In this document: positions 31,870 through 53,015 of the stretch, in pieces
How positions within the stretch are numbered: the stretch's first letter is position 1
Layout: each line of letters begins with the position of its first letter
Source of the DNA: Mycobacterium mantenii
GTDB taxonomy: Bacteria; Actinomycetota; Actinomycetes; Mycobacteriales; Mycobacteriaceae
Assembly (NCBI RefSeq): GCF_010731775.1
Contig: NZ_AP022590.1
Span: 5,146,001-5,210,000, forward strand
Direction of reading: 5' to 3'
DNA: 64,000 bases
Notes under the pieces: model-generated
What the model saw: only the letters and a program-made list of their open reading frames with translations
Databases searched by the model: none
What the model was told of the DNA's origin: nothing
Made by a program: the position numbers and the translations under genes

Positions 31870-32267
31870 GCGCACCCGTTGTCGAAGTGGGCACCACCCT
31901 GCCCGAGCTCAAGCTGCACGGTACGCCGACGTTCATCATCTCAACGGCCCTGGCCACCAGGGACTTTCAGGACGTGCACCACGACCGGGACCTGGCCCAG
32001 GCCAAGGGTTCCAAAGACATCTTCGTCAACATCCTCACCGACACCGGCTTGGTGCAGCGCTACGTCACCGATTGGGCGGGCCCGACGGCGCTGATCAAAT
32101 CGATCGGGCTGCGGCTTGGCGTGCCGTGGTACGCCTACGACACCGTCACGTTCTCCGGTGAGGTAACTGCTGTTGATGACGGCCTGGTCACGCTGAAGGT
32201 GTTCGGCCGCAACAGCCTTGGCGACCACGTCATCGCGAACGTGACGCTGACGATCGGGGGTGCCTGA
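31866..32267 (+). CDS. chsH1: ChsH1, MaoC-like hydratase subunit
   Basis: 133 residues from ATG 31866 (MSAPVVEVG); the open frame from 31827 is a shadow of chsH2. It carries the hydratase dyad region 'ALATRDFQDVHHDRDLAQAK' with Asp and His expected for hydratase 2 catalysis, and 'GSKDIFVNILTDTGLVQRYV'. Works as the catalytic partner of ChsH2. The stop overlaps the ltp2 ATG (TGATG). Confidence 0.95.
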   Translation: MSAPVVEVGTTLPELKLHGTPTFIISTALATRDFQDVHHDRDLAQAKGSKDIFVNILTDTGLVQRYVTDWAGPTALIKSIGLRLGVPWYAYDTVTFSGEVTAVDDGLVTLKVFGRNSLGDHVIANVTLTIGGA

Positions 32268-33436
32268 TGTTGTCGGGTAAGGCCGCGATCGTCGGTATCG
32301 GTGCCACCGACTTCTCCAAGGACTCGGGCCGCAGCGAGCTGCGTCTGGCGGCCGAGGCGGTTCTGGATGCGTTGGACGACGCGGGTCTTTCACCGTCGGA
32401 TGTCGACGGCCTGACCACCTTTACGATGGACACCAACAACGAGACCGCCGTCGCGCGCGCGGCCGGCATCGGTGACCTGAAGTTCTTTTCGCAGATCGGG
32501 TACGGCGGTGGCGCCGCGTGCGCGACCGTACAGCAGGCGGCGATCGCGGTGGCCACCGGGGTGGCCGACGTCGTCGTCGCGTACCGGGCGTTCAACGAGC
32601 GCTCGGGCATGCGGTTCGGTCAGGTCCAGACCCGGCTGGTGGGAAACGCCGGGGTGCAAGCGGATTCGACAGCGGCCGACAACTCCTTCTCGTATCCGCA
32701 TGGGTTGTCGACCCCGGCCGCCCAGGTCGCGATGATCGCCCAGCGCTACATGCATCTGTCCGGTGCGACCAGCCGCGACTTCGGTGCGATCTCGGTGGCC
32801 GACCGCAAGCATGCGGCCAAGAACCCGAAGGCGTATTTCTACGAGAAGCCGATAACCATTGAGGACCACCAGAATTCGCGGTGGATCGCCGAGCCGTTGC
32901 GGCTGCTGGACTGCTGCCAGGAGACCGACGGAGCTGTCGCGATCGTGGTGACGTCGCCGGAGCGCGCGAAGGACCTCAAGCAGCGACCGGCGATCATCGA
33001 GGCGGCGGCGCAGGGCTCCAGCCCCGACCAGTACACGATGGTCAGCTACTACCGGCCCGAGCTCGGCCTGCCCGAGATGGGCGTGGTGGGCCGGCAGCTG
33101 TGGCAGCAATCCGGTCTGAAGCCGACCGACATCCAGACCGCCGTGCTCTACGACCACTTCACCCCCTTCACACTGATTCAGTTGGAAGAGTTGGGATTCT
33201 GCGGCAAGGGCGAGGCGAAGGACTTCATCGCCGATGGCGCCATTGAAATCGGCGGCCGGCTGCCGATCAACACGCATGGCGGTCAGCTCGGTGAGGCCTA
33301 CATTCACGGCATGAACGGCATCGCCGAGGGCGTGCGGCAACTGCGGGGCACGTCGGTGAACCCGGTGCCGGACGTCGAGCACGTCCTGGTCACCGCGGGC
33401 ACGGGCGTTCCCACATCGGGCCTCATCCTGGGCTAA
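32267..33436 (+). CDS. ltp2: Ltp2, retro-aldolase completing side-chain removal
   Basis: 389-residue thiolase-fold protein (SCP-x type, Rv3540c-like). With the DUF35 domain of ChsH2 it cleaves 17-hydroxy-3-oxo-pregnene-20-carboxyl-CoA to androstenedione and propionyl-CoA. Thiolase-like segments 'AAIVGIGATDFSKDSGRSEL' and 'INTHGGQLGEAYIHGMNGIA' are seen; 'YGGGAACATVQQA' replaces the classical thiolase nucleophile context. Last gene of the cyp125 operon; a pair of palindromes follows 54 bases later. Confidence 0.95.
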   Translation: MLSGKAAIVGIGATDFSKDSGRSELRLAAEAVLDALDDAGLSPSDVDGLTTFTMDTNNETAVARAAGIGDLKFFSQIGYGGGAACATVQQAAIAVATGVADVVVAYRAFNERSGMRFGQVQTRLVGNAGVQADSTAADNSFSYPHGLSTPAAQVAMIAQRYMHLSGATSRDFGAISVADRKHAAKNPKAYFYEKPITIEDHQNSRWIAEPLRLLDCCQETDGAVAIVVTSPERAKDLKQRPAIIEAAAQGSSPDQYTMVSYYRPELGLPEMGVVGRQLWQQSGLKPTDIQTAVLYDHFTPFTLIQLEELGFCGKGEAKDFIADGAIEIGGRLPINTHGGQLGEAYIHGMNGIAEGVRQLRGTSVNPVPDVEHVLVTAGTGVPTSGLILG

Positions 33437-33489: not shown

Positions 33490-33545
33490 CGAGCGTGAAG
33501 TTAGTTTCACGTTCGCGGTCGAGCGTGAAGTTAGTTTCACGCTCG
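33490..33545. repeat. Pair of 26-base palindromes left of the DUF559-type gene
   Basis: Two copies (33490-33515 and 33520-33545) share the core GTGAAGTTAGTTTCAC flanked by CGAGC and GCTCG-like ends (the first right end is GTTCG); four bases separate them. Each can fold into a hairpin. A second pair lies on the other side of the next gene (34421-34476). No T tract follows. Confidence 0.85.
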
Positions 33546-33568
33546 CCGGGTGAAGTGACGTCAGCTGC

Positions 33569-34429
33569 ATGGCATGCGACGCTGCGGCGATGGCTGAGCC
33601 GTTCCTTGGTAGCGAAGCCATTGCTGATGGAACGCTGACCAGAAGTCAGCTAGCTACCCGCTACACCAGGCTGTTCCGGGATGTCTATGTCAATCGGGAT
33701 GTAGAAGTAACTGCCGCATTGCGCGCGAAAGCGGGATGGCTTTGGGCAAAGCGGCGAGGAGTTGTCGCCGGTCTGTCTGCTGCCGCCTTGCACGGTTGTA
33801 AGTGGGTAGACGGCACGACGACGGTCGAATTGATCCATGCGAACCGCCACCGATTGCCGGGTATTCATACGCGCGGGGACTCCATAGAGGAAGACGAGAT
33901 CACCATCGTTACCGGTGTTCCGGTGACTACGCCGGCCAGGACAGTGCTCGATCTCGGTTGCTGGTACCCAACCACGAGCGCGGTCGCCGCTATCGACTCG
34001 TTGGCTCGTGCGGCGGAATTCAAGGCTGCTGATGTAGAGCTGTTTGCTCAGCGCTACTCAGGACGGCGCGGCATCGCACGCGCACGCCGGGCGCTCATTC
34101 TGTTTGACGCAGGAGCGCAGTCCCCGAAGGAGACGTGGTTACGGCTGGTTCTGGTGGAGGCTGGACTACCGCGGCCGCAGACGCAAATCCCGGTCCGCAA
34201 TGAATTCGGCCAGGCGATTGCCTATCTGGACATGGGCTGGGAGGACGTCAAGGTCGCAGTGGAGTACGACGGAGATCAGCACCGCAGCGATCGGTCCCAA
34301 TTCGCTTGGGATATCCGGCGATTGGAGAGTTTGCAGCACAAGGGCTGGATCGTGATCCGCGTCGTCGCAGCGGATCGGCCTGCCGACATTGTCCGGCGAG
34401 TCCGCGCTGCCCTCGCCCGCCGAACGTGA
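33569..34429 (+). CDS. AbiEi-like winged-helix protein with C-terminal DUF559 (Vsr-like) nuclease domain
   Basis: 286 residues (ATG 33590 is an equally possible start). The N-terminal half looks like the actinobacterial AbiEi-type antitoxin/winged-helix region ('GTLTRSQLATRYTRLFRDVY', 'AALHGCKWVDG', 'VPVTTPARTVLDLG'). The C-terminal half has a PD-(D/E)XK-like DUF559 core: 'YLDMGWEDVKVAVEYDGDQH' (D...VEYDG-x-x-H), then 'DIRRLESLQHKGWIVIRV'. Codons are visibly more AT-rich at third positions than in neighbours. It sits where H37Rv carries PPE63 and is bracketed by palindromes, which suggests horizontal gain. Role unknown; no cognate toxin is adjacent. Confidence 0.8.
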   Translation: MACDAAAMAEPFLGSEAIADGTLTRSQLATRYTRLFRDVYVNRDVEVTAALRAKAGWLWAKRRGVVAGLSAAALHGCKWVDGTTTVELIHANRHRLPGIHTRGDSIEEDEITIVTGVPVTTPARTVLDLGCWYPTTSAVAAIDSLARAAEFKAADVELFAQRYSGRRGIARARRALILFDAGAQSPKETWLRLVLVEAGLPRPQTQIPVRNEFGQAIAYLDMGWEDVKVAVEYDGDQHRSDRSQFAWDIRRLESLQHKGWIVIRVVAADRPADIVRRVRAALARRT

Positions 34430-34476
34430 AGTTAGTTTCACGCTCGACCTCGAACGTGAAGTTAGCTTCACGCTCG
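34421..34476. repeat. Pair of 26-base palindromes right of the DUF559-type gene
   Basis: Copies at 34421-34446 and 34451-34476 (core GTGAAGTTAGTTTCAC, and GTGAAGTTAGCTTCAC in the second) with CGAAC left ends and GCTCG right ends. The left copy overlaps the stop codon of the preceding gene. Same repeat as at 33490-33545, in the same two-copy arrangement with a four-base gap. Confidence 0.85.
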
Positions 34477-34508: not shown

Positions 34509-35381
34509 CTACGCGGGCACCAGTTCGACGCCGGAGAGCACGACGGCGTTGTCGCGCGAGGGCGCGACAACGCTGGCCAGGAAGCGGCCTTCAGAAGACG
34601 TCGAGTCCTTCCAGATGCGGACCTTGAGCGTCTCGCCGGGGAAGGCCACCCCGGCGAAACGCGCGCCGTAGGCCGCCACCGCGCCGGCGTCGCCGTCAAG
34701 TAGCGCATCGGTGATCGCCTTGCAGGTCATGCCGTAGGTGCACAGCCCGTGCAGGATGGGCTGTGAAAAGCCTGCGGCGGCAGCGAATTCGGGATCGGAG
34801 TGCAGCGGGTTGCGGTCGCCGCACAGCCGGTAGAGCAATGCCTGCTGCGGGAGGATGGGCATGTCGACCTCGAGATCGGGGGCCCGGTCCGGCGCGCCGT
34901 CCGAGGTCGACGGGCCACGCTCGCCGCCGAATCCGCCCTCGCCGCGGGCGAAGATCGACCGGCGCTGGGTCCACAACAGTGTGCCGTCAGGTGCGGTCAC
35001 CGTCGTCTCGCTCCAGATGACCGCAGCCTTGCCCTTGTCCCAGATGTCGGTGAACCGGGTGACGGCCTTGGCCGAGCCGGACGGCGGGAGCGGAGCTGGC
35101 GCCTCGACTCGCTCGCTGGCGTGCAGCACCCTGCCCAGTTCGATGTCGATGCCGGGAAACTTCACGGTCGGCGGTTTGGTGGCGTGGAAGGTGGCGGCCA
35201 CGTTGCCGAACGTCGGCAGCACCTGCGGGGTGTCATCAATCAGGTAGCGCAGTTCACGCGGGTCCATCGGATCGGCGCCCGCGCCCAGGCCGAGATGGTA
35301 GAGCTGAACATCGCTGCTGGCCCAGGAGAATTCGATGGGATCCAGCTCAGCGTTCAGCGCAACGTCTACGTCGATTGGCAT
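34509..35381 (-). CDS. chsH3: MaoC-type enoyl-CoA hydratase, Rv3538-like (ChsH3/Hsd4B)
   Basis: 290-residue double-hotdog hydratase of the MFE-2 hydratase type: N-terminal domain with 'DVQLYHLGLGAGADPMDP' and C-terminal domain with the hydratase-2 motif 'LYRLCGDRNPLHSDPEFAAA' (Asp, Asn-Pro-x-His) and 'PILHGLCTYGMTCKAI'. Acts on 22-enoyl sterol CoA thioesters in the side-chain cycle. It starts 1 base after the kstD stop, so both share the KstR-controlled kstD promoter. Confidence 0.93.
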   Translation of the reverse strand: MPIDVDVALNAELDPIEFSWASSDVQLYHLGLGAGADPMDPRELRYLIDDTPQVLPTFGNVAATFHATKPPTVKFPGIDIELGRVLHASERVEAPAPLPPSGSAKAVTRFTDIWDKGKAAVIWSETTVTAPDGTLLWTQRRSIFARGEGGFGGERGPSTSDGAPDRAPDLEVDMPILPQQALLYRLCGDRNPLHSDPEFAAAAGFSQPILHGLCTYGMTCKAITDALLDGDAGAVAAYGARFAGVAFPGETLKVRIWKDSTSSEGRFLASVVAPSRDNAVVLSGVELVPA

Positions 35382-50779: not shown

Positions 50780-50793
50780 CACCCGCGCACAAC

Positions 50794-50815
50794 AAACTAG
50801 AACGCGTTCTAGTTT
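50794..50815. promoter_or_regulatory. Orphan KstR operator 1 (22-base perfect palindrome)
   Basis: The core TAGAACGCGTTCTA (50798-50811) fits the KstR motif perfectly, and the dyad extends to 22 bases without mismatch, longer than any other site in the window. It lies 15 bases after the LLM stop, where no intact gene starts in either direction. Confidence 0.85.
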
Positions 50816-50827
50816 TCTTGCCAGGGG

Positions 50828-50845
50828 TCTAGAACGCGTTCTAGA
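50828..50845. promoter_or_regulatory. Orphan KstR operator 2 (18-base perfect palindrome)
   Basis: Core TAGAACGCGTTCTA (50830-50843) within an 18-base perfect palindrome. Centre-to-centre distance from operator 1 is 32 bases, about three helical turns, so both could be bound on the same face. An ATG follows at 50854 but opens only a frame antisense to the next gene. Confidence 0.85.
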
Positions 50846-50865
50846 TTGTCCGGATGACCCGCCCG

Positions 50866-52957: not shown

Positions 52958-53015
52958 GCGAGCGTAAGCCCACTGCGGAAAATCGCGGAAGATTTCGCAG
53001 TGGGCTTACGCTCGC
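52958..53015. terminator. 58-base inverted repeat between convergent cyp142 and echA19
   Basis: Perfect 20-base arms (52958-52977 and 52996-53015; left arm GCGAGCGTAAGCCCACTGCG) around an 18-base centre whose ends GAAAATC and GATTTC can pair partly as well. No T run on either side. Placement between two convergent stops suggests a bidirectional terminator; its GCGAGCGT ends echo the CGAGCGTG ends of the palindromes at 33490. Confidence 0.75.

Follow-up and report, generated by a model that had tools for sequence, protein, structure and literature searches.

A palindrome-bracketed AbiEi/DUF559-type nuclease gene in Mycobacterium mantenii suggests an undescribed family of selfish gene-and-repeat elements

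Introduction

The closest described counterpart of the locus reported here is the pairing of repetitive extragenic palindromes (REPs) with REP-associated tyrosine transposases (RAYTs): RAYT genes are described as always flanked by two inverted REPs, with gene and repeat co-evolving and REP abundance following the presence of the gene (PMC2817692), and REP doublets that form hairpins are termed REPINs (PMC3116915). Here, we analyze a gene of Mycobacterium mantenii for an AbiEi-like/DUF559 (MTES_1575-type) nuclease, which lies between two copies of a 56-bp palindromic element in a 64,000-nt stretch of contig NZ_AP022590.1 (positions 5,146,001 to 5,210,000; the whole stretch is herein referred to as the window). 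With REP/RAYT systems (REPtrons) and REPINs as described in PMC2817692, PMC3116915, and PMC3733652, the likeness comprises a gene between two copies of its own palindrome, co-evolution of gene and palindrome, a repeat abundance that follows gene type (with exceptions), and copies and doublets dispersed in gaps. Unlike RAYT, which is an HUH tyrosine transposase, the protein described here joins an AbiEi-like half to a Vsr/EDxHD nuclease; REPs carry a GTAG-like head (GTAG/GTGG), whereas the 56-bp dyad mostly begins, by eye, with CGA; and by the patterns used here there are at most 17 copies per genome, compared with the 37 to 427 given for Stenotrophomonas in the RAYT paper (PMC2817692).

Each half of the protein also has described relatives. 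The AbiEi fold is shared with the type IV AbiE systems (Streptococcus agalactiae AbiEi and Mycobacterium tuberculosis Rv2827c), from which our locus differs in its fused nuclease domain, in having no AbiEii among its two neighbors, and in palindromes that stand on both sides of the gene and are dispersed. The EDxHD/Vsr catalytic fold is shared with the homing endonuclease I-Bth0305I, the DUF559-like NGO0050, and Vsr; unlike these, the protein has another DNA-binding half, its target is unsplit, and its gene is in neither an intron nor a phage gene. The MTES_1575 Vsr-REase domain, the best Pfam match of the nuclease half, is known from a large HEPN/transglutaminase fusion protein of Microbacterium, and the accessible text of that description leaves palindromes unmentioned (PMC3710099). 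We found no earlier description of a palindrome plus AbiEi/DUF559 nuclease system in the literature searched, outside of which lie subscription papers and most preprints, and "mycobacteri" is absent from the searched text of the three REP/RAYT papers. Stem-loop families of M. tuberculosis and Mycobacterium leprae are listed in PMC2267715 and repeats of Mycobacterium intracellulare are screened in PMC10117815; the gene-less elements described below may possibly be among them already.

Results and Discussion

Family Genes Lie between Copies of Their Own Palindromic Element

In the sequences examined, most genes of this family are bracketed by two copies of a palindromic element of their own, and the same element also occurs, free of the gene, around the genome. 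Family members are present in 117 of 118 same-genus genomes (E ≤ 1e-20), and flanks were compared at 94 loci, comprising five paralogues from the M. mantenii genome and 89 loci from among the best-scoring genus matches (a nonrandom set, with some loci near contig ends skipped); 91 of these have full flanks. The score between upstream and downstream flanks averages 56.1 over the 91 loci, as opposed to 24.5 for mismatched pairs, 21.5 for outer parts of the flanks, and 18.8 for shuffles, and a score of at least 40 is reached by 73 of the 91 family genes, 7% of 1365 mismatched pairs, none of 91 outer parts, none of 91 shuffles, and only 1 of 349 other genes of the M. mantenii genome. With a further 56 named loci that are close relatives by construction, a dyad scan covered 150 loci (143 distinct, 135 of them with enough flank). 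A 56-nt dyad with at least 18 of 28 pairs formed was found upstream at 97, downstream at 93, and on both sides at 71 of the 135 loci; in the controls, such a dyad was present in 8 of the 270 shuffles and 3 of the 266 outer parts. Chance flanking is ruled out by the mismatched-pair scores, the dyad controls, the single match among 349 other genes, and backwards controls of the pattern searches, which gave no match. That one control gene with matched flanks (L316:8969-10261), presumably mce-like, has a GTACATTTCACTGGTCTT-containing stretch on either side.

In most cases a well-scoring right element starts 6 nt ahead of the last aligned codon's end, the position seen in the window, and these dyad and element positions imply a common anatomy: a 56-bp dyad, some 13–39 nt, the gene, and a second 56-bp dyad overlapping the stop codon. 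The dyad is built either as a doublet of near-palindromes or as one hairpin of about 56 nt, and by eye most elements open with CGA and close with TCG. A short TGTCGGT/TGTCAGT-like motif is shared by many otherwise different loci (such as L057, L115, and L188) in the stretch that separates the left element from the start codon, and at two loci (L118, the same gene as L183, and L150) a left hairpin is present and no right element was seen at the gene end.

For the M. mantenii locus (table 1), an earlier note made from the sequence alone had reported matched palindrome pairs with the same 4-nt gap on both sides of the gene, which direct reading of the sequence bears out. It had also placed the start of the right pair in the stop codon; the stop does lie inside the first palindrome, but the pair starts 6 nt earlier, and the right element covers the last two codons and the TGA (34427–34429). 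The lower-GC codon use that it described holds against both neighbors (GC content at third codon positions of 0.66 in the nuclease gene vs. 0.87 and 0.85). Folded as single strands, both elements do better than 200 of 200 shuffles (z of −6.5 for the left and −4.0 for the right). A known structured RNA was rejected, the two microRNA-like matches being far below gathering scores (25.3 bits vs. 268 and 20.3 vs. 100).

Table 1. Features of the locus and of a second gap, in window coordinates.
Feature	Position	Strand	Remarks
Left type A dyad element, 56 bp	33490–33545		26-nt palindromes 33490–33515 and 33520–33545; 4-nt spacer 33516–33519
Right type A dyad element, 56 bp	34421–34476		Palindromes 34421–34446 and 34451–34476; 4-nt spacer 34447–34450
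AbiEi-like/DUF559 (MTES_1575-type) nuclease gene	33569–34429	+	286 aa; 279 aa from a later Met start
AbiEi-antitoxin-like half, codons 1–180	33569–34108	+	Half tracking element type
Vsr/EDxHD-type nuclease half, codons 181–286	34109–34426	+	
Upstream neighbor, thiolase-like	32267–33436	+	Named ltp2 in the earlier note
Downstream convergent neighbor, MaoC-like	34509–35381	−	Named chsH3 in the earlier note
Gene-less 56-bp hairpin of a second type	52959–53014		P450/crotonase gap; cognate to paralogue G000:683434-684273

Gene-Less Elements and Paralogues in the M. mantenii Genome

A DNA search with the cassette found the type A doublet without a gene at no fewer than 11 other places in the M. mantenii genome (one contig of 6.19 Mb), a lower bound since 40 of 53 first-look candidates were scored, and none of the 11 adjoins a family gene, the closest being 12.7 kb off. 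The core pattern with at most one mismatch gave 14 + 14 matches, and its backwards control gave none. Judged by open reading frames rather than annotation, at least five of the 11 doublets follow a stop codon by no more than 50 nt, one, at 158829, sits between two divergent reading frames, and the others are at a greater distance from a stop or ambiguous. Gene-less doublets, for which the earlier note had proposed a search, were thereby found in this genome, as they were in other genomes of the genus. The refuting case that it named, genome-wide terminators with no association with DUF559-type genes, is borne out in that the palindromes are genome-wide, but their association with such genes is strong.

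Six family genes are present in this genome (eight matches, two genes being split into two frames). Each of the paralogues at 628, 683, and 799 kb is clearly flanked on either side by its own element, which is a doublet of different sequence at 628 kb and a single hairpin of about 60 nt at 683 and 799 kb; at the 5.69-Mb paralogue, the left element is complete and the right one partial. The frame-broken paralogues (L056, G000:628568-629418, and L060, G000:5693952-5694777) still have their flanking elements, the right one of L060 being the partial one. A search with the 683-kb cassette found its own hairpin at nine or more gene-less places, one of them in the window (again a lower bound, with 40 of 99 first-look candidates scored), and an evenly spaced 400-kb sample contained hairpins that by eye are like the 799-kb and 5.69-Mb types (L299 and L301), away from family genes. 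One intergenic gap (L237, G000:2054971 region) holds type A, single B/D-like, and type C elements, as though this were a place where elements accumulate.

Element Type Goes with Gene Type and with the N-Terminal Half

In the sequences compared, element type and protein type go together. Five doublet types were defined by their cores (A, GTGAARYTARYTTCAC; B, GTGCGGCYRGCCGCAC; C, GTCACGCYRGCGTGRC; D, GCCCGGCYRGCCGGGC; E, GTGACGCTGCAGTCAC/GTGACTGCAGCGTCAC), and patterns allowing up to three mismatches found type A in 21, type B in 19, and type E in 9 of the 118 genomes, with no match for the backwards control; with its halves swapped, the type E pattern occurs in 1 of 118 genomes as opposed to 9 in the right order. 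Gene-less copies were counted after subtracting two copies for the gene's own flanks, and gene types were assigned in the 34 genomes with a sampled type A–E gene, so that genomes counted as lacking a type may hold unsampled genes. On this basis, and with P values that ignore species relatedness, type B gene-less copies average 8.7 where a type B gene is present (found in 9 of 9 genomes) versus 0.56 in the others (10 of 109; P = 1.3e-13), type A copies 4.7 (6 of 9) versus 0.47 (13 of 109; P = 2.5e-6), and type E copies 1.2 (3 of 4) versus 0.11 (5 of 114; P = 2.9e-8).

The same correspondence is seen at a single gene-less gap. At L048 and its orthologues (18 of 30 loci with both flanks, leaving out L250 and L261, with gaps above 1 kb, and L266, with a 19-nt gap and no element), there is no element in G061 (10 nt) or G058 (9 nt) and an element in 13 genomes. 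Its type is that of the same genome's sampled gene or ltp2-site remnant in 10 of the 13 (permutation P = 0.0009) and that of the element at the ltp2 site in 9 of the 13 (P = 0.0015).

The part of the protein that tracks the element is, by these comparisons, the AbiEi-like N-terminal half. Among the 43 of 53 genes comparable at the ltp2 locus, element similarity correlates with the identity of residues 1–180 (Spearman 0.73, and 0.71 given ltp2 DNA identity), and the correlation is 0.55 given both ltp2 and the nuclease half (Mantel-type P = 0.001); the nuclease half contributes 0.12 once the N-terminal half is known. The sister species pair L071/L072, with ltp2 DNA 94.6% identical over the compared part, has type B versus type D elements on both sides, N-terminal halves 63% identical and nuclease halves 85% identical (synonymous divergence of 1.95 and 0.75, respectively), as if an old nuclease half had been kept while the putative recognition half changed in step with both elements. 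Among 49 proteins, the 30 residues that best follow element type comprise 10 in residues 1–60, 19 in 61–180, and 1 beyond, a ranking to which clade structure contributes; residues 24, 29, 77, and 94 are candidate specificity residues.

Predicted Fold of the Protein

The antitoxin-like half and the Vsr/DUF559-like half named in the earlier note are both supported by the predicted structure of the window protein, which combines an AbiEi antitoxin fold with a Vsr/EDxHD homing-endonuclease catalytic domain whose best structural match is the predicted likeness to I-Bth0305I. The Pfam matches of this protein to MTES_1575 REase, DUF559, and AbiEi_1 are weak, all three being under the Pfam cut-offs; MTES_1575 is the top match of the nuclease half, reached by 37 of 41 aligned members at E ≤ 0.001. 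Over the same 41 members, D221, G235, and H238 are invariant and E232 nearly so, as conservation in an alignment rather than a mapped active site. PADLOC gives AbiEi matches for the window protein (best E 2.8e-12), and database names of family genes are "type IV toxin-antitoxin system AbiEi family antitoxin" or "DUF559 domain-containing protein." Pfam gave no match to an HUH tyrosine transposase (IS200/IS605-like) domain in the window protein or in the 41 aligned members.

Sites, Orientations, and Gene-Less Junctions

By flanking DNA, 151 loci fall into 28 clusters, the largest of 65 (ltp2/MaoC), 29 (P450/crotonase), and 19 loci, with inverted placements counted apart and 7 of 150 loci being duplicates. 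Inverted cassettes occur at the first site (L093 and L096), the second (L138 and L188), and the third (L141 and L182), and these six loci account for the majority of the 251 opposite-strand flank matches. The MaoC gene was confirmed to lie upstream of the family gene in L093 and L096, opposite to the window; the other four were assigned to their sites from matching loci and flank ends.

Among 30 ltp2 junctions, the gene is intact in 15, broken or incomplete in 4, and absent within 1.5 kb in 11. Five of the 11 have an element, one is at a contig end, and five have no element and other neighbors; two of these last five, L229 in G074 and L233 in G108, have a cassette 1.6–2.4 kb further on. Forty further ltp2 junctions of 2 kb each, from genomes with no known cassette right after ltp2, held no family gene within that distance (in L348 of G020, cassette L096 lies just past the 2-kb stretch); one 56-nt cassette-like hairpin is present in L334 and in L336, element-free 9-nt gaps in L324, L325, and L328, and, apart from L317, other contents in the remainder. 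In L317 (G064), a long hairpin of another sequence directly follows ltp2, with no family gene within 2 kb. P450 and crotonase neighbors are found in 28 of the 29 cassette loci of the second cluster, the 29th being cut by a contig end; the corresponding gap in the window contains one 56-bp hairpin and no gene, and full cassettes stand there in other genomes. Element-free, one-element, and cassette states all occur among the gene-less-site comparisons, and visual comparison of one site with its element-free counterparts showed no clear target-site duplication.

The gene has no match in 50,697 phage records; among 72,556 plasmid records it has six partial matches, each covering less than 80%, and a phage- or plasmid-borne gene was rejected on these searches. 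The mobile cassette that the earlier note suggested is plausible in view of the many sites, the two orientations at three of them, and the gene-less sites with an element, but the phage and plasmid records do not favor it, and no movement was caught; the empty sites that it proposed to look for exist in part as single elements, but others hold a half-element or none.

Family Members outside the Genus

Of 296 genomes of the phylum, 20 contain a match to a profile of the 41 members at E ≤ 1e-25, and 15 of the 20 belong to other genera. These 15 gave 23 matches, of which 20 had loci and were examined; at 11 of the 20, the upstream/downstream score is above that of the highest mismatched pair (36), and the repeats are unlike the mycobacterial ones. 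One of the 11, L285, may be duplicated coding sequence.

A Selfish Repeat-and-Nuclease Element and Its Alternatives

We consider the locus probably to be one member of a large actinobacterial family of selfish repeat-and-nuclease elements, akin to REP/RAYT but built on an unrelated nuclease. The earlier note's suggestion of a nuclease with the palindrome as its possible substrate, in the manner of REP-associated proteins, fits well with genes that have their own palindromes on both sides, gene-less copies that follow gene type, and an N-terminal half that appears to track the element. We infer cutting, binding, and mobility for the protein, and the cognacy of gene and element is supported by sequence comparison. 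In the mechanism that we propose, the N-terminal half would bind one half of the dyad, a homodimer would span the 56 bp, and the Vsr/EDxHD-type domains would cut at or near the dyad center. Cutting both flanking elements would free the cassette, and rejoining would leave one element; joined into a cut gene-less element, the cassette would restore two elements in either orientation, a scheme that we propose because both cassette ends are whole elements. Repair of cut elements from other copies would make the copies of one genome resemble each other and differ from those of other genomes, and repeated cutting and repair would spread and homogenize the elements, making gene and palindromes a selfish partnership. 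An element would be expected at some gene-less sites under this scheme, and recombination between copies predicts likewise.

We hold more tentatively, at slightly under even chances, that this is a class of mobile or self-propagating elements unrelated to known transposases, in which a dimeric AbiEi-Vsr/EDxHD nuclease acting on a 56-bp dyad moves or copies its cassette from one such dyad to another in either orientation while spreading gene-less dyads and making them uniform, a convergent counterpart of REP/RAYT in Actinobacteria whose specificity would change by exchange of the N-terminal half with coordinated change of both flanks. No defining protein feature of the look-alike systems is shared as a whole by this machinery, whose mobility is putative.

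Several observations weigh against a selfish, mobile element. As many as 65 of the 151 loci share one site and one orientation, and such frequent conservation of position implies that vertical inheritance with in-place co-change of the elements is at least as common as hopping. The five element-bearing gene-less ltp2 junctions comprise three with a single 26-nt palindrome and two with a doublet; the halves require an extra step, and recombination between two element copies could yield the same junctions. The hairpin in the P450/crotonase gap of the window is of the 683-kb type, by eye unlike the cassettes found there, and is hence not a plain scar. With both flanking elements intact, an unregulated enzyme would be expected to cut the locus that encodes it; domain searches of the window protein and the 41 aligned members gave no transposase domain, and to our knowledge Vsr-like nucleases do not join DNA. 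Bracketing is also incomplete, with flank scores below 30 at 10 of the 91 loci, no left element at the 3.79-Mb paralogue (3793634), and no matched repeat above the mismatched-pair maximum at 9 of the 20 loci outside the genus. The association of gene and element types, besides its P values being blind to relatedness, has exceptions: 9 to 17 type B elements without a sampled type B gene in G116, G046, G051, and G048, 15 and 12 type A matches without a sampled type A gene in G094 and G106, type E elements without a sampled type E gene in some genomes, and 3 of the 13 L048-gap genomes in which element type mismatches that of the gene or remnant. The type B elements of those four genomes are possibly orphaned populations left after gene loss; a type B element persists at the ltp2 site in G116, G001, and G051.

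An alternative that we judge unlikely is that the protein is a domesticated AbiEi-type repressor with a nuclease tail and the palindromes are its operators or regulon, the downstream one being a second operator or a terminator, in which case mobility is unneeded and operators co-evolve with the DNA-binding half. According to PMC7319586, AbiEi and Rv2827c bind inverted repeats in their own promoters and autoregulate; the predicted AbiEi fold of the N-terminal half, its tracking of element type, and the position of the doublet at 158829 between divergent frames (1 of the 11) agree with such a role. Operators would not, however, readily account for elements on both sides of the gene with the right one over the stop codon, for the gene-less doublets that closely follow stop codons (the remaining positions being ambiguous), for the conservation of the nuclease motif residues, or for a gene-less element that has element-free sites (G061, with a gap of 10 nt, G058, with one of 9 nt, and G007, with one of 19 nt).

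It is rather improbable that the elements arise and spread by other means and that the gene is a homing endonuclease landing in them by break repair, even though I-Bth0305I is the best predicted match of the catalytic domain and an element is present at some of the gene-less sites of the locus. Insertion by homing destroys the target site, whereas the window gene and most loci examined have a whole element on either side, leaving the target unsplit, and the highest numbers of gene-less elements occur in the presence of the cognate gene or its remnant.

A single-gene antiphage nuclease, with the palindromes as self-markers or as recombination ends for swapping specificities, seems very unlikely. 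The PADLOC matches and the apparent exchange of the N-terminal half between L071 and L072, with the nuclease half retained, agree with it, but the N-terminal half goes with the palindromes of its host, AbiEi proper is an antitoxin, and an AbiEii/DUF1814 nucleotidyltransferase toxin gene is absent from the two adjacent genes (thiolase-like and MaoC-like); the single-gene defence raised in the earlier note gained no support besides the AbiEi similarity. That ordinary terminators stand beside the gene by coincidence is barely credible, for although the palindromes are genome-wide, several of them at gene ends, and a terminator-like pattern at 33512–33529 overlaps the left element, the terminator scan of the region found one pattern against a shuffle mean of 0.7, a near-shuffle level on which an ordinary intrinsic terminator was rejected, and the matching of both sides is type specific and largely confined to family genes.

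In a different part of the window, 50793–50848 is a tandem dyad with two copies of TAGAACGCGTTCTA, which resembles a KstR-type operator pair and is a candidate for one.

Implications

Since most relatives examined have a matching palindrome of their own, these results suggest an undescribed family of selfish gene-and-repeat elements. If this is true, actinobacteria would have their own palindrome-spreading machinery, and one class of the hairpins scattered through the intergenic DNA of mycobacterial genomes would be explained. The family would additionally offer many natural protein–target pairs from which to learn how an AbiEi-type half reads DNA, and genes currently named as AbiEi family antitoxins or DUF559 domain-containing proteins would be recast as parts of repeat systems.
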